Assembly (NCBI RefSeq): GCF_003990725.2
Contig: NZ_CP030064.1
Span: 1,984,001 to 2,048,000 of the forward strand
From: Halorubrum sp. PV6
GTDB lineage: Archaea; Halobacteriota; Halobacteria; Halobacteriales; Haloferacaceae
Reading direction: 5' to 3'
DNA length: 64,000 nucleotides
Below the pieces are notes generated by a model. It searched no databases and was not told where the DNA came from. It saw nothing but the letters and a program-made list of their open reading frames with translations. Position 1 is the stretch's first letter, and every line of letters starts with the position of its first letter. Made by a program: the position numbers and the translations under genes. This document shows positions 2,907 to 13,692 of the stretch, one piece after another.

Positions 2907-4538
2907 CTATGCATCTGGCGGTTGCGTAGGTGTCGTGAGATCCTCGCGTCGCGTTCCGGTCGCATCGCGCTCGGCCGCCTGCCACTCTCGAAGCCGGTCG
3001 TCGATGGCCGCCTCCATATCGCGCATGAACTCGTCGACGGTGTTGCCCATCAGTAAGAGCGGCTGATCGACGGCGAGCAGCTCTTCGAGAACTTCGCTGG
3101 CGTCGTCGTGACGCGAGTGCTGCGTCGCCGGCACCTCGACGTTTCGCGCGAACGCGTCAGTACCGGTCCCCCCGACGTGGACGTGGTCGATGCAGTCTCT
3201 GTCGGCAAGCAGGTCGGTGTACTCCGCGAACGACGCGGTCCGCCCGCGCCGATCATGTCGGAGGTAGACGAACGGGAGTATCTGCTCGTCGTCCGCAGTC
3301 AGTGCCCGGCGGACCATTTCGGTACTCTCGACGTCGTTGACTTCGGCGGCGTTGAACAGTCGACCACCGACCACTCGCTTCCACTCCGGTTGGATCTGGT
3401 CGATGAACGTATCCAGTTCCGACTCGGGAACTGGCTCCTTCCCGATGGCCTGGAGTGTCGTGTTGACCGCGTGAACCGTTTCAGCTCCGAGCAGCCCCCG
3501 ATGACGCTCGGGAATCTGCACCTGTTCGATGGTCCCGCCGCGAGCCGTGATTTCTGCCTCCATGTACTCGTGGAGGGCCGGGTGTTGCTCGCCGTTGACC
3601 ACGTGGGTCCCCTTCGGAATCGACCGGGAGAGCGCGCGAGCGATATCTTGCCGACGCTTCCCAAGCGTGTCATTGTGGTCCTGCCGAACGTTCGTCATCA
3701 GGATGACGTCCGGCTGGATGAACCGTTGGTTGACGATGCGGGTCGTGTACTCCGAGATGGCCTGGTTTTCGAAAATCGCGACCGCGTCCGAATCGAACTC
3801 GCTCATCCGCGGGCCGAACTCTCGGATGACGTTGACGTTCTCGTAGAGGGTGGTGCGTGGTCCCTGTCGTTCGATGGGGTGGACGCGACCGTTCCGGATG
3901 ATCACCGGGTAGTTGCCGGTGATTTTCGTGAAGGTGTCGTACCCGCGGCGGTTGAACACGTCGTCAAGCCGGCGAACCGTGGAGGATTTCCCCCGCGAAC
4001 CGGAGACGATGATCCGCGTATCGAACTGCTCGAGGAACTCCCGATGGCGACGACCGCGGGTTAGTTCCTTGATAAAGCCGGTGAGCGACGGTTTCCCGAC
4101 TTCGACGGTGTCGGCCTCGCTCCGCCACTCGTGTTCCGAGCCGACGTTGTACACCGGCAGCGCACCGCGACCGAGTTCCTCGAACCGGGCGATACCCTCC
4201 CGAGCGGCCGCCTCGGTCGGGTAGCGCTGGCCGCTGTGAGCCAGCACGCGGTCCGGCGTTTCGAGCCGCCAGACCCAATCGTCTTCCTCCCGCGACGCTC
4301 CGGAGGGGTCCAGATCCTGTCCGACGACGAATCGTGGATCGCGAACCTCGACCGAGGCGAACGCCAGATCCTCGCCGGCGAGGTGGGCGAGCGCCGCCCG
4401 AACCCGATCGATCTCGTGGCGCGTGTCGAGTGAGTCGTCGTCGTGACGACCCCCGGTCGCGAGGACGACCGGGCCGTCTCGAAGCCGCCACGTCCAGCCG
4501 AACCCCCGCCCGTACACCTCGTAGCCGTGCTCGTTCAT
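2907..4538 (-). CDS. pgsB: PgsB/CapB-like ligase with N-terminal extension (poly-gamma-glutamate synthesis)
   Basis: A 543-residue ATP-dependent Mur-ligase-type enzyme of the PgsB/CapB family, which joins glutamate through gamma-carboxyl bonds at the membrane. The P-loop SGSRGKSST is at residues 179-187 and the family motif TNVRQDHNDTLG begins near 282. Bacterial PgsB is about 390-400 residues. The extra 150 N-terminal residues contain two related stretches, near 6-52 (YEVYGRGFGWTWRL...) and 86-122 (DDWVWRLETPDRVLAHSG...YPTEAAAREGI), that look like tandem YegP/DUF1508-type units. The ATG overlaps the pgsC stop by 4 bases. Ligase call secure; exact polymer (poly-glutamate or another gamma-linked chain) inferred. 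Confidence 0.88.
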   Translation of the reverse strand: MNEHGYEVYGRGFGWTWRLRDGPVVLATGGRHDDDSLDTRHEIDRVRAALAHLAGEDLAFASVEVRDPRFVVGQDLDPSGASREEDDWVWRLETPDRVLAHSGQRYPTEAAAREGIARFEELGRGALPVYNVGSEHEWRSEADTVEVGKPSLTGFIKELTRGRRHREFLEQFDTRIIVSGSRGKSSTVRRLDDVFNRRGYDTFTKITGNYPVIIRNGRVHPIERQGPRTTLYENVNVIREFGPRMSEFDSDAVAIFENQAISEYTTRIVNQRFIQPDVILMTNVRQDHNDTLGKRRQDIARALSRSIPKGTHVVNGEQHPALHEYMEAEITARGGTIEQVQIPERHRGLLGAETVHAVNTTLQAIGKEPVPESELDTFIDQIQPEWKRVVGGRLFNAAEVNDVESTEMVRRALTADDEQILPFVYLRHDRRGRTASFAEYTDLLADRDCIDHVHVGGTGTDAFARNVEVPATQHSRHDDASEVLEELLAVDQPLLLMGNTVDEFMRDMEAAIDDRLREWQAAERDATGTRREDLTTPTQPPDA

Positions 4539-5710
4539 GTGCCGTCACCCTCCGAGAGCACCGACCCCGAGAGCACGTCTGCCTCAGACGGCTGTTGGAT
4601 CGTCACCCGACGAGCGTAGAGCAGAGAGCCCACCATGACGACGAGACCACCGAGCATCAGTGGGACGGTAAGCGTCTGCGGGAAGCCCTGTGGACCGGGA
4701 TCGGTGATGAGCCGCAGTGCGGCGAGCGTGGGGACGAAGACGGCGAGTTGGAGGGGGAGAATGAGTCGACTCTCTCGTGGGGCAGTCGCGTGCGCGTTGT
4801 AGGCACTAACGCCGGCCATAATGGCAGTAAAGAACGCGGTCAGACCCTGTTCGATGGGCAACGCCAGCGTGACCGGCAGCGTCGCAACCAGTGCGATGGC
4901 CGTACCGACGCCGAGCAGCACGCGGCCGTATCGGAGCGTCACGCGATTGATAATCTCCATTAACACGCCCGCGACGAGAAAGACGAAGAGGTAGAGGGCG
5001 AAAAACCAGACGTTGACGAACACGAAGATAGCCAACAGCGTCGCCGTAATCACGCCGAGACGAACGTCGAACCACGAGCGCAGCGCTTCCGCGAGGAACA
5101 GCCCACCCGTCAACAACCCGACCGCCATAACTCGTGGCACGATGACCGCCTCCGGCTCGACGACCGCGACGGCGTTTTTATAAACGGCAATGTCTGCGGT
5201 CGAGCTGAACAGTATCGGCGGCGTCAGCGTTCCAAACGCGTTTGCCGTGGCCGGCGTCACGAGCAGCCATCCGAGCCCCAGTAGTCCGGCGAAGAGGCCG
5301 ACAGTTCCCAGCAAGTCGGGACGGCGGTACTCTGGTTTGAGTTGGTGGAGGTTGTACGCCGCCAGTCCGGGGAGAATCGAGCCGACGAAGACGGCGGTCC
5401 GGGTCTCGAGCAGCGAACCGCCTCGACCGAAGACGCCGACGGCGATCGCTACCGGAATCAGTATCCCGATGATGACAGCCGCTGTCAGTTCGTCGCGCCC
5501 GTATATCAGCGTCCGCCGTTTTAAATATCCTAATCCCAGAAACGCCAAGAGCGTGCTCCCGACGAAGACGGGAAGCATGACGACGTTTTTGAGCGTGTAA
5601 ACGGTCAGTATCGGCACGGTGATCGTGCCGCCGAGTCGGTAGCCGTAGAACTGCGTTATCACTGCAATCAACAGAAATCCCAGCGCAGCTAGCGTCGTAG
5701 CGACCCACAT
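4535..5710 (-). CDS. pgsC: PgsC/CapC-like membrane protein, internally duplicated
   Basis: A 391-residue polytopic membrane protein. Residues 25-125 match the pattern of PgsC/CapC, the small membrane partner of PgsB (a VP[IG] segment, then YGR, then a late PGL-x-AN-like motif). Bacterial PgsC is about 150 residues. Here the pattern recurs: LIYGRDEL (68-75) pairs with LRYGRVLL (259-266), and LPGLAAYNLH (113-122) pairs with MAGVSAYNAH (298-307), an offset of about 185-191. The protein therefore looks like a fused tandem duplication. The start at 5710 (MWVATT) begins 1 base after the regulator's stop; the in-frame extension upstream is basic and overlaps that gene. It likely forms the membrane complex with PgsB. 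Confidence 0.83.
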   Translation of the reverse strand: MWVATTLAALGFLLIAVITQFYGYRLGGTITVPILTVYTLKNVVMLPVFVGSTLLAFLGLGYLKRRTLIYGRDELTAAVIIGILIPVAIAVGVFGRGGSLLETRTAVFVGSILPGLAAYNLHQLKPEYRRPDLLGTVGLFAGLLGLGWLLVTPATANAFGTLTPPILFSSTADIAVYKNAVAVVEPEAVIVPRVMAVGLLTGGLFLAEALRSWFDVRLGVITATLLAIFVFVNVWFFALYLFVFLVAGVLMEIINRVTLRYGRVLLGVGTAIALVATLPVTLALPIEQGLTAFFTAIMAGVSAYNAHATAPRESRLILPLQLAVFVPTLAALRLITDPGPQGFPQTLTVPLMLGGLVVMVGSLLYARRVTIQQPSEADVLSGSVLSEGDGT

Positions 5711-5711
5711 C

Positions 5712-6086
5712 TTACGATTCCAACAGTTTTTCGACCCGTGCAGCGAGTTCGCTCGGCGAGAACGGCTTCGTGACGAAGTCGTTCGCACCGGCGTCCAGCG
5801 CACGCATTACGTCGTCTTCTCGTCCCCGAGACGTGAGCATCATCACCGGGATGTCGGCCAGTTCCGCGTGGCCTCGGAGTCGTTCGAGCGTCGCGAACCC
5901 GTCGAGTTCCGGCATCATCACGTCGAGGATACATAGGTCTGGCCGCGGATGGTCCGGGTCGGTCAACAGCTCCCACACCTCGTCGCCGTCGGCGACCGTC
6001 TTGAGATCGTACGCTGACCCGAGTTTGGTTTCGATCAGCACTCGGACGTACTCGTCGTCGTCTGCCGCGAGAATGTACGGTGCCAT
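5712..6086 (-). CDS. Single-domain response regulator (CheY-like), first gene of the pgs operon
   Basis: A 124-residue receiver domain with no output domain. The acidic pocket is Asp9-Asp11, the phospho-acceptor is Asp55 (CILDVMMPELDG), and the conserved Thr85 and Lys107 are present. It is cotranscribed with pgsC (1-base gap) and pgsB, and a large histidine kinase starts 152 bases away on the opposite strand. A stand-alone receiver usually acts by protein-protein contact, so direct control of PgsC/PgsB activity or a phosphorelay with the kinase is plausible. The start at 6086 (MAPYILAADDDEY) fits a receiver domain; a 7-residue upstream extension exists. Confidence 0.93.
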   Translation of the reverse strand: MAPYILAADDDEYVRVLIETKLGSAYDLKTVADGDEVWELLTDPDHPRPDLCILDVMMPELDGFATLERLRGHAELADIPVMMLTSRGREDDVMRALDAGANDFVTKPFSPSELAARVEKLLES

Positions 6087-6092
6087 TGTCAG

Positions 6093-6136
6093 ATGAGACA
6101 GCGGCACGGAGTTGAGTGTTTCCCATATGAGACAGC
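6093..6136. promoter_or_regulatory. Direct repeats ATGAGACAGC between the pgs operon and the kinase gene
   Basis: ATGAGACAGC occurs at 6093-6102 and again at 6127-6136, 34 bases apart, just upstream of the regulator gene on the minus strand. They lie where an activator or repressor would bind. No strong TATA box is visible for the pgs operon. Function inferred from position only. Confidence 0.3.
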
Positions 6137-6208
6137 CTCACGGACTGTGTGCCGGTCCAATCTGTCCGTATTCACTCGCGCGTGGTTGAGATGTCACGGT
6201 AGCAAACC

Positions 6209-6216
6209 AATATATA
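6209..6216 (+). promoter_or_regulatory. TATA box of the histidine kinase gene
   Basis: AATATATA centred about 25 bases before the ATG at 6238. The spacing indicates a leaderless transcript and supports ATG 6238 over the in-frame GTG at 6229. Confidence 0.6.
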
Positions 6217-6237
6217 GCTAGCCGTCGGGTGACTGGT

Positions 6238-9200
6238 ATGGCGTCTCAGGATGGTCAAGTGCGGTTCTACGAACAACTCTTTGAGTCTGTCTCGGACGCG
6301 ATTTTTGTGTATGATCCCGAAAACGGAGTTGTCGTCACGGCGAACCCCGCTGCGGCGGAGATAACCGGATACCCAGTCGAAACGCTTGAGGGACGCTCGG
6401 TTGCCCAATTCAGTGCCGGAACTCCCGCGGAGGTCGAACAGGCGGCCCTCCGGATCATCGAGACGGCCTCGGCGGGCGCCCAAGAGTTCGAGTGGCCGAT
6501 TGAGCGCGCCGACGGCGAACTCAGGACCACCGAGGTGTCGCTGCAGCGCACGACGCTCGGCGGCGACGACCGAGCGCTCGCGATCATGCGCGACGTGACC
6601 GAGCGCGAACAGGCCCGCAACGAGGCGAACGAGCAGCGACAGGTGCTCTCGCTGCTGACCGAAGTGAACCCGGCGGTGTTGTGGCTGTTTTCGCCGGACT
6701 GGGACGAGTGTCTGTTCATCAACGACGCGTACGAGGAGCTGTTCGGACGGTCGACGACGGCGATCAAATCCAATTCCATGGATTTCATGGAGGCAGTCCA
6801 CCCGGAGGATCGCGAGACCGTCCAGACCGCAATGGAACAGCTGAGCAACGGTTCTCGTGTCGAATTGGAGTACCGAGTCAACGAGAGCGAAGCGTACAGC
6901 CGGTGGGTCTGGACCGAGGGACTCCCCATTTTCAACGAGACAGGGGAGTTGCAGTCGGTCGTCGGGTTCAACCGAGACATCACCGACATGAAGCGGCTCG
7001 AAACTGAACTCATCGGCCAGCGCGACGAGCTGGCGGCCCTGACGGATAACGCGCCGATAATCTTGTTCGAACTCGACGACGAGGGGACGTTCCTCCAGTC
7101 GCGGGGGCGCGGGCTCGACGACCTTCAGATCGACCCGAACCAGTTCATCGGAGAGTCCATCTTCGAGGTGTACGGGGACTACGAAGTGATCACCGACGCC
7201 TGTCGGCAGGCGCTCAACGGGGAGGCAGTCAGACGGACCGTCGATTTCGAGGGGTTCGTCTTCGACGCCTGGTATCAGCCGACGTACGACGAGACAGGGG
7301 CGGTAGACGGGGTTCTCGGCGTTGCGGTCACGGTCACGGATCGCGCCCGGCTTGAAGCGGATCTGATGGCGAACAACCGCGCGCTACAGGATCTCCACAC
7401 TCGCGCGGCGCGCAGCGATCTCACCCTCTCGGAGCGCATTGAAACGATGCTGGACATCGGGCGGGAGCGCTTGGATCTGCCGTACGGCTTTTTAACACGG
7501 ATCGACGACGGGACACAACACATCGTCGAGTCAGTGGGGTCACACGACGAGCTACAGGCAGGGGCCTCCGCGCCGCTGTCCCAGGCGTACTGTCGCCGAA
7601 CCATCGACACCGAGGGGCTGCTCGGCGTGCAAGACGCGGTGGCGGACGGGTGGGAGGGTGACCCCGCTTACGAGCGATTCAACCTCAACTGCTACATCGG
7701 CGGCAAACTGCAGGTGGACGGCGAGCTGTACGGGACGGTCTGTTTCGCGGATTCGGTCGCCCGCGATCGGAGCTTCTCCGAGTTCGAGCGGTCGCTCGTC
7801 GAACTCCTCGTTCAGTGGCTCGGCTACGAACTCCAACGAGATCAGCGTGAGTCGCGACTGCGCGAACTCAACGACGAACTGGAGACCGTGCTGGACACCT
7901 CGCCCGTGGCCATCGTTCAGCTTGACGAGGAGGCAACGATTCTCCAGTGGAACCAATGCGCGGCGGAGCTGTTCAATATCCCGGCAGCAGGGGCGGTCGG
8001 CTCGCATATCCATACCATCCCTAAAGAGCAGCGTCCGGAGTTCCAGACGTTGCTGGGGCGAGTCATGGACGGCGAGGTGATCCGCGACTACGAAACCACG
8101 CAAAGAGGAGCCGACGGCTCGCAACGAGTGCTGTCGTTGAACCTCGAATCGACGGTCGACGACGACGGCGATCCGACCGGCGCAATCGTCGCCGTTACCG
8201 ACATCACGAGCCGGAAACGGCGACACCAACGGACCGACGCGCTGCGAGCAGCGACGCAGGACCTCGTCGGGGCCGACGAGCAAGAAACCGTGGGCAAGAT
8301 TGCTCTTCGGACGGCCAGAGACGCGTTGGAATTTCCGATCTGTGCCGTGTGGCTCTACGACGAGACGGCAGACGTGTTATCTCCGGTCGCACAAAGCGAG
8401 GCCGCCGTGGAGTTGGTAGGAGATGCGCCGACGATCGATCGCGGCGAGGGGCTGTTCTGGCGAGCGTTCCTCACCGGGCAGACGGTCGTCGTCAACGATG
8501 TCCAAAGCGAGGATGGCATTTTCAACCCCGAGACTGACATCGGATCTGAGATCATCGTCCCCATGGGCGACCACGGGGTGCTAGCCGTCGCGTCAGCCGG
8601 GACGCAGTCGTTCGGCACGGAAGACAGCAACATTCTCGAAACCCTCGCCGGGTCGTTGACGGCCGCACTCAACAGCGTCGCTGATAAGGAGCGCCTCCGA
8701 CAGCGTGATCGTGAACTCCAGCGCCAGAACGAGCAGTTAGACGAGTTCGCAGACGTGATCGCACACGACCTGCGGGGACCGCTCACCGCTGCCCGAGGGT
8801 TCTTCGAAATCGCGCTCGAAACCAGCGACCCCGACCACTTCAAGCGGGTCGAAGAGGCCCACGCCCGGATGGAACTGCTTATCGACGACCTGCTGACGAT
8901 GGCTCGGCAGGGTCGGTCCATCGGCGACCGCATGCCCGTCGATCTTGTCGCGTTAGCCCGCCGCATCTGGGCCGATGTCCACGATGAAGCCACGCTCAAG
9001 ATTACGGAACCACTGCCGGACCTGACCGGCGACGTTGCGCGGCTCGAAGAGGTATTCAGCAACCTCTTTCGTAACGCGGTCGACCACGTCGGACCCAACG
9101 TCACTGTCAGGGTTGGACCACTCGATGACGGTGGATTCTACGTCGAAGACGACGGGCCGGGGATTCCGGTCGAGAAGCGCGACCACATCTTCGATTACGG

Positions 9201-9330
9201 GTACACGACGAATCTGCGGGGAACGGGGATCGGGTTAGCCGTCGTCGAAGAGATCATCATCGCCCACGGATGGACCATCTCGGTCACGGACGGGTCCGAC
9301 GGGGGGGCCCGGTTCGAGATTTCGACGTGA
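6238..9330 (+). CDS. Multi-PAS/GAF sensor histidine kinase
   Basis: A 1030-residue soluble sensor kinase without obvious membrane helices. From the N-terminus I read three PAS-type domains (about 5-125, 130-260, 265-380), a GAF domain (385-545), a fourth PAS (548-665), a second GAF (670-815), then HisKA and HATPase_c. The phospho-acceptor is His843 in VIAHDLRGPL. The ATPase shows the N box (NLFRNAVDH), G1 (DDGPGIP) and G2 (GTGIGLAVV). It is divergent from the receiver-pgsC-pgsB operon, making that receiver a likely partner. Soluble PAS/GAF arrays commonly sense redox state, light or small ligands; the signal cannot be told here. Confidence 0.95.
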   Translation: MASQDGQVRFYEQLFESVSDAIFVYDPENGVVVTANPAAAEITGYPVETLEGRSVAQFSAGTPAEVEQAALRIIETASAGAQEFEWPIERADGELRTTEVSLQRTTLGGDDRALAIMRDVTEREQARNEANEQRQVLSLLTEVNPAVLWLFSPDWDECLFINDAYEELFGRSTTAIKSNSMDFMEAVHPEDRETVQTAMEQLSNGSRVELEYRVNESEAYSRWVWTEGLPIFNETGELQSVVGFNRDITDMKRLETELIGQRDELAALTDNAPIILFELDDEGTFLQSRGRGLDDLQIDPNQFIGESIFEVYGDYEVITDACRQALNGEAVRRTVDFEGFVFDAWYQPTYDETGAVDGVLGVAVTVTDRARLEADLMANNRALQDLHTRAARSDLTLSERIETMLDIGRERLDLPYGFLTRIDDGTQHIVESVGSHDELQAGASAPLSQAYCRRTIDTEGLLGVQDAVADGWEGDPAYERFNLNCYIGGKLQVDGELYGTVCFADSVARDRSFSEFERSLVELLVQWLGYELQRDQRESRLRELNDELETVLDTSPVAIVQLDEEATILQWNQCAAELFNIPAAGAVGSHIHTIPKEQRPEFQTLLGRVMDGEVIRDYETTQRGADGSQRVLSLNLESTVDDDGDPTGAIVAVTDITSRKRRHQRTDALRAATQDLVGADEQETVGKIALRTARDALEFPICAVWLYDETADVLSPVAQSEAAVELVGDAPTIDRGEGLFWRAFLTGQTVVVNDVQSEDGIFNPETDIGSEIIVPMGDHGVLAVASAGTQSFGTEDSNILETLAGSLTAALNSVADKERLRQRDRELQRQNEQLDEFADVIAHDLRGPLTAARGFFEIALETSDPDHFKRVEEAHARMELLIDDLLTMARQGRSIGDRMPVDLVALARRIWADVHDEATLKITEPLPDLTGDVARLEEVFSNLFRNAVDHVGPNVTVRVGPLDDGGFYVEDDGPGIPVEKRDHIFDYGYTTNLRGTGIGLAVVEEIIIAHGWTISVTDGSDGGARFEIST

Positions 9331-9705: not shown

Positions 9706-9778
9706 GCGACGGTGTGAGTAGCGCTTCCGGGGTCGATCGTTCCGAGGGCTTTTGTTGCTTCTTCGCGTAGTAACGGTG

Positions 9779-10882
9779 ATGCGAGAAACAGAGGCTGACC
9801 GGTCTCAGACCGTTCGACGACGCGATTTTCTGGCTGCCGGTGGCGCGACCGCTGCGGTCGGACTGAGCGGGTGTCTCGATGCGGTCGGACAGTCGGGCGG
9901 CGGCGACGGAACGCTCCGGGTATCGGCTTGGAGCGGCACGAACGAAACCGTCTTTCGCGAGGTCATCAAGCCCCGTTACGAGGCCGAGACGGGCAACACG
10001 CTTGAGGTGACGGGCAACTGGCAGGGGATCCTCTCCAAGATCCGGCAGTCGCCCGCGGACGACCCGCCCTTCGACGTGACCGTCGGCGTGGGTCGGACGA
10101 ACTATCTCGGGCAGCAGGACGACCTCTGGGAGCCGGTCGACTACGATCGGCTCTCGAACGCCGAGGGAATCAAACCGCGGCTCCGCGAGTTCCAGATGGC
10201 CGAGGTCGGCGTTCCGGTCGCTTACGGCGTCCACGCCTACGTCTACAACGAGGACGCCGCGTCGTGGACGCCCGAGTCCTGGAGCGACGTGCAGTCTCCC
10301 GAGGCCGAGGGGATCGCGCTCCCCAGCGACTTCTGGCTCAAGCTGTTCATGATGGCGGCGCTGTTGGAGGACGACGAGCCGATGGCCGACGAGGTGTACG
10401 ACCGACGGTACATGGACGCGCTTTTCGAGACCATCGAAGGGCTCCCGGTGTCGACGTTCTACCAGGGGACCCAGCAGCTCTGGACCGCTCTCGGCGAGGG
10501 GCTGGCCGATGTCGGGCACTACTTTTTCGCGTACGGGCTCAAGCGCGCGGAGACGACCGACGAGTACCCGATCGGCGTCACCGTCCCGGAGCCGACGACG
10601 GGATACGTCGACTACTACCAGATCGTCCGCGGTACGGACAACGTCGACATGGCCCACGAGTTCATCGACTTCCTGCTCGACCCGGACACGCAGAGCGCCT
10701 ACGCCGAGGAGTTCAACCTGGGGTTCTCTCACGAGGAGACGACCTACCCCGACCAGACCGCGACGCAGCTCCCGACGACGAACGACGAGCTCGACAGCGT
10801 GGCGTTTCAGAACTTCGCCGGCGTCGCCGACTTCTCCGGCGAGATGAACGAGCGGTTCCGCACGTTCGTCCAAGACAACTGA
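9779..10882 (+). CDS. Extracellular solute-binding lipoprotein (PotD/spermidine-putrescine type)
   Basis: A 367-residue binding protein, first gene of a four-gene ABC importer. It has a Tat signal (RRRDFLAAGG, residues 13-22) and a lipobox ending at Cys32 (GLSGC), so it is exported folded and lipid-anchored outside the membrane. The mature part (LRVSAWSGTNETVFREVIKP...YEAETG) is the class of binding proteins that includes spermidine/putrescine, thiamine and iron carriers. The two permeases downstream are PotB/PotC-like, so polyamine or a related small solute is a reasonable guess. ATG 9779 is preferred because it places the twin arginines near the N-terminus. Confidence 0.88.
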   Translation: MRETEADRSQTVRRRDFLAAGGATAAVGLSGCLDAVGQSGGGDGTLRVSAWSGTNETVFREVIKPRYEAETGNTLEVTGNWQGILSKIRQSPADDPPFDVTVGVGRTNYLGQQDDLWEPVDYDRLSNAEGIKPRLREFQMAEVGVPVAYGVHAYVYNEDAASWTPESWSDVQSPEAEGIALPSDFWLKLFMMAALLEDDEPMADEVYDRRYMDALFETIEGLPVSTFYQGTQQLWTALGEGLADVGHYFFAYGLKRAETTDEYPIGVTVPEPTTGYVDYYQIVRGTDNVDMAHEFIDFLLDPDTQSAYAEEFNLGFSHEETTYPDQTATQLPTTNDELDSVAFQNFAGVADFSGEMNERFRTFVQDN

Positions 10883-10884
10883 GC

Positions 10885-12012
10885 ATGTCGGGGCTCGAAC
10901 TCGACGGGGTGGCCGTCGCGTACGGCGACACGACCGCCGTCGAAGACCTCTCGCTGTCGGTCGAGTCGGGGGAACTGTTCTGTCTGCTCGGGCCGAGCGG
11001 CTCGGGGAAATCGACCGTCCTACGCGCCATCGCGGGGTTCGAGACCCCGGATCGCGGGCGGGTCACCATCGGCACCGACACCGTGACCGATGCCCCGCCG
11101 TACGACCGCGACTGCTCGATGGTGTTCCAAGACTGGGCGCTGTTCCCCCAGCAGACGGTCCTCGAAAACGTCGCGTTCGGGCCGAAGATGGACGGCGTAG
11201 ACCGCGAGACCCGCGAGGCGCGGGCCCGAGAGATGCTCGAACTGGTCGAGATGACCGGCCACGAGAGCGATCGGCCGGCGGAGCTGAGCGGCGGGCAGAA
11301 ACAGCGGGTCGCCCTCGCCCGCTCGCTGGCCGTCGACCCCGAGCTGCTGTTGCTCGACGAGCCGCTGTCGAACCTCGACCGAAAGCTCCGAGAGACGATG
11401 CAGCTCGAATTAAAACGCATCCACGACCGAGTCGGGACGACGATGGTCTACGTCACCCACGACCAAGACGAGGCGTTCACGCTCGCCGACCGCATGGCCG
11501 TCATGAACGAGGGGCGGCTCGTGCAGGTCGACGTGCCCGAACGCGTGTACGACGACCCGGCAGACCGGTTCGTCGAGTCCTTCCTGGGAACGACGAACTT
11601 CGTCGCCGCCACCGTCGAACGCGCGGGCGATTGCCCGCGCCTCTCGACGCCGATGGGGCTGGCCTTCGAGGCGCCGATCGACGGCGAGGGGCTCGCCCGC
11701 GGCGACGACGTGACCGTCTCGCTCCGGCCGGAACGGCTCGCGGTGTCGGCCGGATCGGCCCCTGCAGCCGTCGACGGCGGCGTCTCGGCGCGGTCCGGCG
11801 GCGCCGGGCGCGTCGCGGCGACCGGCACCGTCGTCGAGACGATCCACCGCGGCTCCGACGTGCGGGTCCGCCTCTCGGTCGGCGACGCGGAGCTGTTCGT
11901 CGAGCAGTCGGCCGCGGCCGCGGTCCGGCTCTCGCCCGGTGACGACGTGACGGTCGAGTTCGCGCCGGCCGACGCGACCTATTTCGACGCGACGGGGGGA
12001 CGGTGTCGCTGA
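10885..12012 (+). CDS. ABC transporter ATPase (PotA/FbpC type)
   Basis: A 375-residue ATP-binding subunit on the cytoplasmic face of the importer. Walker A is GPSGSGKST (36-44), the signature is LSGGQKQR, and Walker B is LLLLDEP followed by the D-loop SNLD. After residue 240 comes a TOBE-like regulatory domain (SLRPERLAVS and a later VETIHRGSDVRVRLSV segment), typical of PotA, MalK and FbpC. It starts 2 bases after the binding-protein stop and overlaps the next permease by 10 bases, so the four genes form one operon. Confidence 0.93.
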   Translation: MSGLELDGVAVAYGDTTAVEDLSLSVESGELFCLLGPSGSGKSTVLRAIAGFETPDRGRVTIGTDTVTDAPPYDRDCSMVFQDWALFPQQTVLENVAFGPKMDGVDRETREARAREMLELVEMTGHESDRPAELSGGQKQRVALARSLAVDPELLLLDEPLSNLDRKLRETMQLELKRIHDRVGTTMVYVTHDQDEAFTLADRMAVMNEGRLVQVDVPERVYDDPADRFVESFLGTTNFVAATVERAGDCPRLSTPMGLAFEAPIDGEGLARGDDVTVSLRPERLAVSAGSAPAAVDGGVSARSGGAGRVAATGTVVETIHRGSDVRVRLSVGDAELFVEQSAAAAVRLSPGDDVTVEFAPADATYFDATGGRCR

Positions 12013-12899
12013 GCGACGCCCGGTCGGCGCTGGGGGCGCCGTCGCTGAGCGGTCGCTGGCGGACCGTCGCGCTCCTGCTCCCGCTCGCGGCGCTCAACAC
12101 CGCGGTGTTCCTCGTCCCGATGGCCTATCTGCTCCGGCTCAGTTTCACCGCCAGGACGCCGCAGGGGGCCTTCGTCGAGGGGTCGCTGTCGCTCGACGGC
12201 TACCGCTACGTCGCCGAGACGCCGCTCGTTCACGACATCTTCGGGTTCACGCTGCTCTTCGGCGTGCTGGTGACGGCGCTGGCCGTCCTCGTCTCGGTCC
12301 TGTACGCCTACGCGGCGTGGCGCGCCGCCGGCGGCTGGCGCGCGCTCCTCCTCGGCGGGGCGGTCCTCTCGCTTTTCACCACCATCGTGGTGAAGCTGTT
12401 CGCCGTGGTGCTGGTGTTCTCGCCGCGGGGCGTGCTCAACGACGCGCTGACCGAGCTGGGAGTGATCGGCTCGCCGCTGTTGCTGATCGACAACCTCGCC
12501 GGGGCGGTCATCGCGCAGCTCTATATCGTCGTCCCGTACGGCGTCCTCGCCGTGTACGCGGTGCTCTCGACGCTCGACGACCGGCAGGTCGAGGCCGCGC
12601 TCGACCTCGGCGCCGACCGGCCGCGCGTGTTCCGCGAAGTCGTCCTCCCGCACGCGCGGCCCGGCATCGCCGTCGCGGGCATCATCAGCTTCACCTGGTC
12701 GGTCGGCGCGTACCCCGCCCCGCTGCTGCTCGGCTCCGGGAGCGAACAGACGACGGCGATCCTCGTCTCACAGCTCCTGTTGACCGACTTCGACTGGCCC
12801 GCCGCCGCGGCGGTCGCCGTGGTCACCGTCTCGCTCGTGCTGACGACGCTGTTGCTCGGCCTCCGGCGGCTCGGGAGCGGGGGTGAGCTGCTTGGTTGA
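12003..12899 (+). CDS. ABC transporter permease (PotB-like)
   Basis: A 298-residue membrane subunit with about six helices. The EAA loop that docks on the ATPase is readable as VEAALDLGADRPRVFREVVL. A GTG start overlaps the ATPase stop by 10 bases. Together with the next gene it forms the channel of the PotDABC-type importer. The order ATPase, PotB-like, PotC-like matches polyamine-type operons. Confidence 0.9.
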   Translation: MSLSDARSALGAPSLSGRWRTVALLLPLAALNTAVFLVPMAYLLRLSFTARTPQGAFVEGSLSLDGYRYVAETPLVHDIFGFTLLFGVLVTALAVLVSVLYAYAAWRAAGGWRALLLGGAVLSLFTTIVVKLFAVVLVFSPRGVLNDALTELGVIGSPLLLIDNLAGAVIAQLYIVVPYGVLAVYAVLSTLDDRQVEAALDLGADRPRVFREVVLPHARPGIAVAGIISFTWSVGAYPAPLLLGSGSEQTTAILVSQLLLTDFDWPAAAAVAVVTVSLVLTTLLLGLRRLGSGGELLG

Positions 12900-13692
12900 G
12901 CGCCGACTCCGGCGGTGGTTGTTCCGCGCCGTCGTCGCCACCCTGTTCGGCTTTCTCGTGTTACCGCTCGCTATCGTGGTCTCGACGGCGTTCGACGCCT
13001 CCAGCGTCGTCACGTTCCCCCCGACCGCGCTCTCGACGCGGTGGATCGGCGAGCTGTTCCGCTCGCCCACGTGGCTCCGTTCGCTCCTCAACAGCCTCGT
13101 CGTCGCGTCGGGGACGACGCTCGTCTCGATGGTCGTCGGAACGACCGCGGCGCTCGCGCTGCAGGGGTACGACGGCCGGTTCCGGACGGTCGTGGTCGGC
13201 TTGGCGGTGCTGCCGCTGCTCGTCCCAGGGGTCATCATCGGCGTGACGCTGCTGACGTTCTTCTCGCGGTTCGGCCTCCAGCAGAGCTACGCGGCGCTCG
13301 TGTTGGCCCACTCGCTGTGGGCGACGCCGCTGACGTTCTCCGTGATGCAGTCGGCGTTCGCCCGCTTCGACTGGCGGCTCCACGAGGCGGCCCTCGACCT
13401 CGGAGCCTCTCGGGTCGAGGCGTTCCGGACCGTCGTCGTCCCCGAGCTGCGGGCCGGACTCGCGGTGGCGGCGCTGGTCGGCTTCATCGTCAGCCTCCAG
13501 GAGTTCGTCATGGCGCTTTTCCTCTCCGGGCCGGACACGCGGACCGTGCCGGTCGAGGCGTGGAACTCGCTTCGACAGAGCCTCGACCCGCTCGTGAGCG
13601 TCGTCTCGACGATCCTCCTCGCCGCGGTCGTGCTGCTGGTGGTGTCTGCCGGCGCGCTGGTCGGGCTCGACCGCTTCGCGGCGGAGACCTGA
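12883..13692 (+). CDS. ABC transporter permease (PotC-like)
   Basis: A 269-residue second permease with about six membrane helices and the EAA loop HEAALDLGASRVEAFRTVVV. The GTG at 12883 overlaps the previous gene by 17 bases; an in-frame TTG at 12892 is an alternative start. It ends the operon. Size and motif match PotC-type subunits. Confidence 0.9.
   Translation: MSCLVERRLRRWLFRAVVATLFGFLVLPLAIVVSTAFDASSVVTFPPTALSTRWIGELFRSPTWLRSLLNSLVVASGTTLVSMVVGTTAALALQGYDGRFRTVVVGLAVLPLLVPGVIIGVTLLTFFSRFGLQQSYAALVLAHSLWATPLTFSVMQSAFARFDWRLHEAALDLGASRVEAFRTVVVPELRAGLAVAALVGFIVSLQEFVMALFLSGPDTRTVPVEAWNSLRQSLDPLVSVVSTILLAAVVLLVVSAGALVGLDRFAAET

Follow-up and report, generated by a model that had tools for sequence, protein, structure and literature searches.

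What does a CheY-like receiver without an output domain do as the first gene of an operon for a surface-polymer synthase? The question is raised by a stretch of 64,000 nucleotides from Halorubrum sp. PV6 (contig NZ_CP030064.1, positions 1,984,001 to 2,048,000 of the forward strand; hereafter the window), whose genome comprises two contigs and 3.04 Mb. The first-pass annotation of this DNA had read a stand-alone receiver, pgsC and pgsB as one operon with a divergent kinase gene, and gene coordinates and family matches agree with it (Table 1): one base (5711) separates the receiver and PgsC genes, and the PgsC and PgsB genes overlap by four (4535-4538). The kinase gene does diverge from the receiver gene, at a distance of 151 bases between the two starts instead of the 152 given originally. 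We report here that kinase, receiver, PgsC and PgsB form a conserved cassette in many haloarchaea, and that switching of the synthase at the protein level by the phosphorylated receiver is the likeliest reading of it.

Among 170 genomes of the family, 38 encode PgsC (PF14102), and 11 of the 42 loci found in them (43 PgsC genes) have a receiver upstream. A scan of named genomes with a PgsB profile yielded 14 loci, in Halonotius, Haloferax (three species), Salinibaculum, Halovenus (two), Halorubrum, Halohasta, Halopenitus, Natrinema, Halorussus, Halorientalis and one further archaeon; the receiver is intact in 13 of them and clipped by the contig end in the remaining one (L079). At the level of the order, 392 genomes were evenly drawn from a larger group, and 73 of them hold PgsB relatives. 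We compared 65 PgsC genes, four of which lack a neighbouring PgsB and were left out of the PgsB tree. The 61 pairs are drawn from the family census (42 loci), three named loci (11 of the 14 were removed as duplicates) and 19 order-level loci, and a receiver lies directly upstream on the same strand in 22 of them, a proportion that is not a population frequency, the order-level loci having been taken from a PgsB match list that favours the best matches. L079 is counted among the 22, although its receiver is a contig-edge fragment of 52 amino acids and was left out of the receiver tree. Neighbouring genes were called by a codon-usage script, and the loci L174, L177 and L184, in which it overlooked the receiver, were checked by tblastn. 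Outside the 61 pairs, tblastn revealed six more fragmentary or weak PgsB sites, one of them a broken receiver-linked cassette (G303) and five without a receiver.

In the tree of the 61 PgsB proteins, the 22 receiver-linked sequences form one clade (SH-aLRT 99) with one change of state: the linkage of the receiver to PgsC-PgsB has a single origin. These loci cover six GTDB family codes (f1, f3, f4, f7, f12 and f17), which excludes an accident of one genome; the receiver is found beside pgsC far beyond the genome in which the first-pass annotation had noticed it. The order receiver-PgsC-PgsB is constant in all 22 loci, and it is the orientation of the kinase that varies. In 20 loci the kinase is a direct neighbour of the receiver, divergent in 11 and upstream on the same strand in nine, where three of the kinase genes overlap the receiver gene by four bases; the exceptions are L079 with its contig end and L146, from a metagenome-assembled genome. 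The four-base overlap of PgsC and PgsB is kept in 20 of the 22 loci. The one-base gap in front of PgsC, from which tight coupling had been concluded, is a local feature shared with Halonotius only; since the distance is 34 to 142 bases in the other 20 loci, we rejected it as a defining trait.

The components of the cassette also vary together. Across 20 loci, pairwise identities correlate between receiver and kinase (r 0.94) and between PgsC and PgsB (r 0.97), and the cross pairs reach 0.79 to 0.83; none of 2000 Mantel permutations, which ignore phylogeny, gave values as high as those observed. Halonotius is the window's nearest relative for all four proteins (identity 0.72 to 0.80), and far closer than Halorubrum sp. 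Hd13 of the same genus, whose PgsB is 58% identical to that of the window, which suggests from sequence comparison that the whole cassette was transferred between lineages. It is plasmid-borne in Halorientalis, Halobellus and Salarchaeum, and G165 and G303 hold broken or rearranged copies. Further copies are broken by or lie among insertion elements (L158, L159, L191 and L037), the receiver of L191 being split by about 2.4 kb and a transposase-like gene standing between PgsC and PgsB in L037. Because of such copies, the cassette is suggested to be an accessory, easily lost trait. Its mobility would also fit an ordinary kinase-receiver pair that travels as a passenger and is functionally unrelated to the polymer genes, as would the copies that are broken or displaced (G165, G303 and G107), and any co-transferred block is expected to give correlated gene trees. 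However, the receiver stays beside PgsC in all full-length clade members read, gene order is fixed while the kinase changes orientation, and the sister receivers described below all stand on another polymer synthase, and we consider a mere passenger very unlikely.

These sister receivers belong to a set of strong matches to the window's receiver (E up to 1e-22), which occur in 36 of the 170 family genomes: 11 are linked to PgsC, 22 to a HEAT-repeat protein and a family 2 glycosyltransferase (GT2), and three are displaced or orphan. In G165 and G107 the same kinase-receiver pair lies near genes resembling those of insertion sequences, with PgsC-PgsB displaced or lost, and G010 holds an orphan pair. 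All 22 intact non-orphan sister receivers directly precede the HEAT-repeat protein and the membrane GT2, which were identified by PF13646 and PF13641 in L161 and L162 and as homologues of these in the other 20, and a relative of the GT2-locus kinase is present in 19 of the 22 stretches read. Orthology at a single locus accounts for most of the GT2-linked receivers, and 18 of the 22 come from the window's genus; in the receiver tree they form one clade (99/93), with the PgsC-linked receivers around it. Altogether, 33 of the 36 strong matches sit on a surface-polymer synthase, and with 11 on PgsC-PgsB and 22 on HEAT protein plus glycosyltransferase, a single receiver lineage is thus shared by two unrelated synthases. 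The window's own genome yielded no receiver-synthase locus of the sister type and only a distant (31%) GT2 relative. Since the action of CheY-P on the motor of Halobacterium requires a HEAT_PBS protein (PMC2666748), the HEAT protein is a reasonable receiver adaptor. In the loci read (L161:7916-13184, L162:4052-9090, L165-L184), receiver, HEAT-repeat membrane protein and GT2 are accompanied by a nearby GAF/HisKA kinase and a nearby conserved lipoprotein-like gene of the 785-amino-acid type without Pfam match; the operon is widespread in the window's genus.

The receiver of the window has a complete phosphorylation site, with the phospho-acceptor Asp55, the acidic pair Asp10/Asp11, Thr85 and Lys107, and Pfam detects no output domain in it. 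No exchange of Asp10, Asp11, Asp55 or Lys107 occurs in the 22 GT2-linked receivers or in the 19 unique PgsC-linked ones (of 21 sequences), and Thr or Ser occupies position 85. The adjoining kinase contains HisKA and HATPase_c; a hydrophobic-segment scan found no strong membrane segment in its 1030 residues, and sensor architectures vary among the cassette kinases scanned. Positions 60, 96 and 104 consistently distinguish PgsC-linked from GT2-linked receivers, and the latter two positions lie on the alpha4-beta5 side, the output surface of CheY-like proteins.

Gene order, conservation, single origin, co-inheritance of the kinase, the intact phosphorylation site, the absence of CapA and the recurrence of the receiver lineage on a second synthase support a proposal to which we give about an even chance, namely that the cassette is a dedicated two-component switch of a PgsA-independent poly-gamma-glutamate-type synthase, operated by receiver contact. 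The soluble PAS/GAF kinase would sense an intracellular cue and phosphorylate the single-domain receiver on Asp55, whose alpha4-beta5-alpha5 face would then dock on the membrane synthase, that is, on PgsB as a putative ATP-dependent amide ligase of Mur fold and on the double-length PgsC as its membrane component; the contact would probably be made by the N-terminal UPF0339 tandem of PgsB. The docked receiver would alter synthase activity, in the direction of activation, and the product, most likely a gamma-linked polymer of L-glutamate, would be exported to the surface. Phosphotransfer, docking and its place, activation and the identity of the polymer are steps that we infer. Concerning the place of docking, 16 PgsB sites set the receiver clade, in which they are conserved, apart from 14 PgsB proteins that have the same module but no receiver, and 11 of the 16 fall within residues 1-158 (Fisher p 1.5e-5); this makes the UPF0339 part a lead to the docking site, but not a proof.

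Several observations weigh against this proposal. The enrichment of clade-specific sites, with an odds ratio of 11, has a smaller significant counterpart in the small CapA clade (3.8; clade B, 1.5, not significant), and the UPF0339 module cannot by itself confer receiver control, because the 14 receiver-less PgsB proteins compared possess it as well. The C-terminal SVLSGGD tail of PgsC was rejected as a docking motif, since it is also found in many receiver-less PgsC proteins, and fusions of a receiver to PgsB or PgsC were not seen among the loci read. PgsB and PgsC score under the NCBI equivalog cut-offs, and the identity of the polymer is therefore not certain. In Salinibaculum (L076), PgsB belongs to one subclade and the receiver to another, so the kinase-receiver pair is exchangeable, yet kept, and G107 and G010 have kinase-receiver pairs without PgsC-PgsB.

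A few genomes hold the pair apart from PgsC-PgsB, which would also suit an indirect action: the receiver would relay to a distinct transcription factor or a second kinase, and its operon position would reflect co-expression. REC-only proteins are capable of relay, archaeal pathways such as FilR1/FilR2 mix REC-only and DNA-binding regulators (PMC5847659), and transcription of pgs in Bacillus is under the control of DegS-DegU and ComP-ComA (PMC5751247). We nevertheless place indirect action on the unlikely side: no extra gene family recurs near the receiver-linked loci across subclades (regulators were not annotated singly), the receiver lineage stands beside two unrelated synthases in nearly all of its strong matches, and the promoter sequence on the receiver side is unlike even that of the nearest relative. 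In the comparison of this intergenic region with Halonotius, a block on the kinase side is partly conserved. The ten-base direct repeat ATGAGACAGC (plus strand), present in two copies at 6093-6136 upstream of the receiver, is missing from the Halonotius counterpart and was rejected as an operator.

The proposed synthase would work without PgsA. The first-pass annotation had noted that neither PgsA/CapA nor a release enzyme is adjacent; indeed, no PF09587 or hydrolase gene stands beside the window cassette, which is thus not a PgsBCA operon, and eight of the 11 receiver-linked family genomes lack PF09587 altogether. Unlinked copies exist in the other three (the window's genome, with one copy, G048 and G136). 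PF09587 is, however, commoner in the family than PgsC (71 versus 38 of 170 genomes), and together with its absence from the eight genomes this led us to reject an unlinked PgsA as a hidden partner. CapA lies downstream of PgsB in one of the 22 receiver-linked loci (L139). The receiver's slot directly upstream of PgsC is taken by CapA in L157 and in another PgsB clade, where five loci without a receiver show this arrangement; the gene in Halorubrum lacusprofundi pHLAC01, one of these five, is annotated as CapA. In L072 (6746-14642), two different PgsC-PgsB operons stand in tandem, with CapA before the second. Because Bacillus PgsBC without PgsA yields an L-rich polymer (PMC6029982) and Natrialba aegyptiaca produces poly-gamma-L-glutamate (PMC5751247), a PgsA-free synthase of the L-polymer is plausible by analogy.

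The window proteins are homologous relatives of PgsC and PgsB, not certified NCBI equivalogs. PgsC has hydrophobic segments and contains the CapC domain twice, by tandem duplication; its PF14102 score exceeds the cut-off of 27 bits, and it misses the equivalog cut-off of TIGR04011 (18.5 of 96.45 bits). This duplication and the UPF0339 module of PgsB had escaped the first-pass annotation. PgsB stays under the cut-offs of TIGR04012 (equivalog, 222.7 bits) and Mur_ligase_M (24 bits). It has the P-loop GSRGKSS, whose Gly, Lys and Ser are invariant in A1 and A3, and the best Foldseek matches of its low-confidence model are MurD, MurT, MurF and FPGS. AlphaFold gave mean pLDDT values of 50.9 for PgsC and 58.9 for PgsB; the structure search was made with the PgsB model alone, and only the Mur fold was used from it. 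Single-sequence searches matched no solved structure to PgsB or PgsC. In profile comparisons, residues 6-52 of PgsB match 3bid (E 0.33) and residues 84-125 match 6q2z (E 0.54), both weakly; the N-terminus also matches the HVO_2922 family, and a beta-beta-beta-alpha unit appears in it twice in the low-confidence model. UPF0339/DUF1508 repeats fused to PgsB are N-terminal in the window (two, 4164-4523) and apparently also C-terminal in L150 (6321-8372), and PgsB of L053 (4679-7132) has a long coiled-coil-like C-terminal extension, its locus containing a divergent PAS kinase and no receiver. A receiver-PgsB fusion in these two longer proteins was rejected: their extra parts look like coiled coil and additional repeats of UPF0339 type, Pfam finding no REC domain in L053 and L150 being judged by eye alone.

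The scores under the equivalog cut-offs and the double-length PgsC also leave room for a product that is not free poly-gamma-glutamate. It could be a glycoconjugate of gamma-linked glutamate or glutamine, or a surface component could bear gamma-glutamyl tails, and either would be compatible with switching. Haloarchaeal glutaminylglycan is poly-gamma-L-glutamate with oligosaccharides, for which CapB has been proposed (PMC11915815), and the PF05908 poly-gamma-glutamate hydrolase was not found in the window's genome. It adjoins PgsB/PgsC in some receiver-less loci and in none of the receiver-linked ones; PF05908-like genes stand beside receiver-less PgsC-PgsB in L053, L067, L071 and L152-L157, sometimes in two copies. 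On the other hand, this hydrolase and the PF09587 CapA beside receiver-less relatives tie the family to poly-gamma-glutamate, and the L-polymer of N. aegyptiaca points the same way, so that we regard a different product as unlikely.

Table 1. Features of the cassette in the window
Feature	Coordinates	Strand	Remarks
Stand-alone CheY-like receiver (REC)	5712..6086	-	124 aa; PF00072 93 bits
PgsC/CapC-like membrane protein	4535..5710	-	391 aa; PF14102 79.8 bits, two stretches
PgsB/CapB-like Mur-ligase-fold protein	2907..4538	-	543 aa; TIGR04012 90.8 bits, Mur_ligase_M 20.2 bits
PgsB N-terminal part, residues 1-158: tandem UPF0339/DUF1508 module and linker; candidate docking site	4065..4538	-	
Soluble histidine kinase with PAS and GAF sensors, HisKA, HATPase_c	6238..9330	+	1030 aa; divergent from operon; Pfam
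Divergent intergenic region with TATA-like stretch on kinase side	6087..6237		151 bases; read from sequence

Two further features of the window lie nearby. Two overlapping small genes at 1921-2684 resemble a toxin-antitoxin pair with a PIN-like toxin, and positions 9752-13692 hold an ABC transporter operon (substrate-binding protein, ATPase and two permeases), polyamine-type by its look.

Compared with known systems, the cassette resembles Bacillus PgsBCA(E)/CapBCA(E) in that a Mur-fold ligase and a CapC membrane protein share an operon. It differs in lacking an adjacent PgsA, in its duplicated PgsC, in the UPF0339 tandem of PgsB and in having its own kinase and receiver, and the DegS-DegU/ComP-ComA regulation of Bacillus is transcriptional (PMC5751247). 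The haloarchaeal CapBCA operons, named in Haloquadratum (PMC1544339) and known from Haloquadratum walsbyi and H. lacusprofundi pHLAC01, contain the same PgsC-PgsB families (about 400 and 526 amino acids in pHLAC01); in contrast to the window they have no receiver, and CapA takes its slot in pHLAC01 and four more loci of its PgsB clade. A parallel in mechanism may be Myxococcus xanthus, where EpsW~P acts on EpsZ post-translationally (PMC12802240): there, too, a phosphorylated single-domain response regulator is paired with a surface-polymer enzyme, a contact that would exist in the window cassette only by analogy. That system is bacterial, EpsZ is a phosphoglycosyl transferase starting a Wzx/Wzy polysaccharide, and its input is the Dif chemosensory system. 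Archaeal receivers are tied to polymer synthases also in MTH_548, a fusion of REC to a BcsA-like glycosyltransferase (PMC5847659), and in the receiver-HEAT-GT2 operon; in both, the synthase is a PF13641 glycosyltransferase and not an amide ligase, and the operon form has the HEAT protein in between. Our searches, which covered open-access papers only, turned up neither a receiver described in a pgs/cap operon nor a receiver-HEAT-GT2 operon. By that measure, the parts and the general idea are already known; new are the dedicated kinase-receiver-PgsC-PgsB cassette and the service of one receiver lineage to two synthases.

It is conceivable, though we consider it doubtful, that haloarchaeal kinase-receiver pairs are a general post-translational switch for surface-polymer synthases, with PgsB-PgsC and the HEAT-coupled GT2 fitted with one receiver lineage and the receiver, as an activating subunit, making PgsA dispensable; if so, kinase-receiver pairs would do the job that cyclic di-GMP does at many bacterial synthases. 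About 40% of the response regulators of archaea are stand-alone receivers, and since these mostly lack a conserved neighbourhood, the targets of most of them are unknown (PMC5847659). The cassette would provide dedicated two-component control inside a poly-gamma-glutamate-type operon as well as a natural PgsA-free synthase. The two conserved neighbourhoods described here name surface-polymer synthases as likely receiver targets and therefore make the output of archaeal REC-only proteins directly testable.

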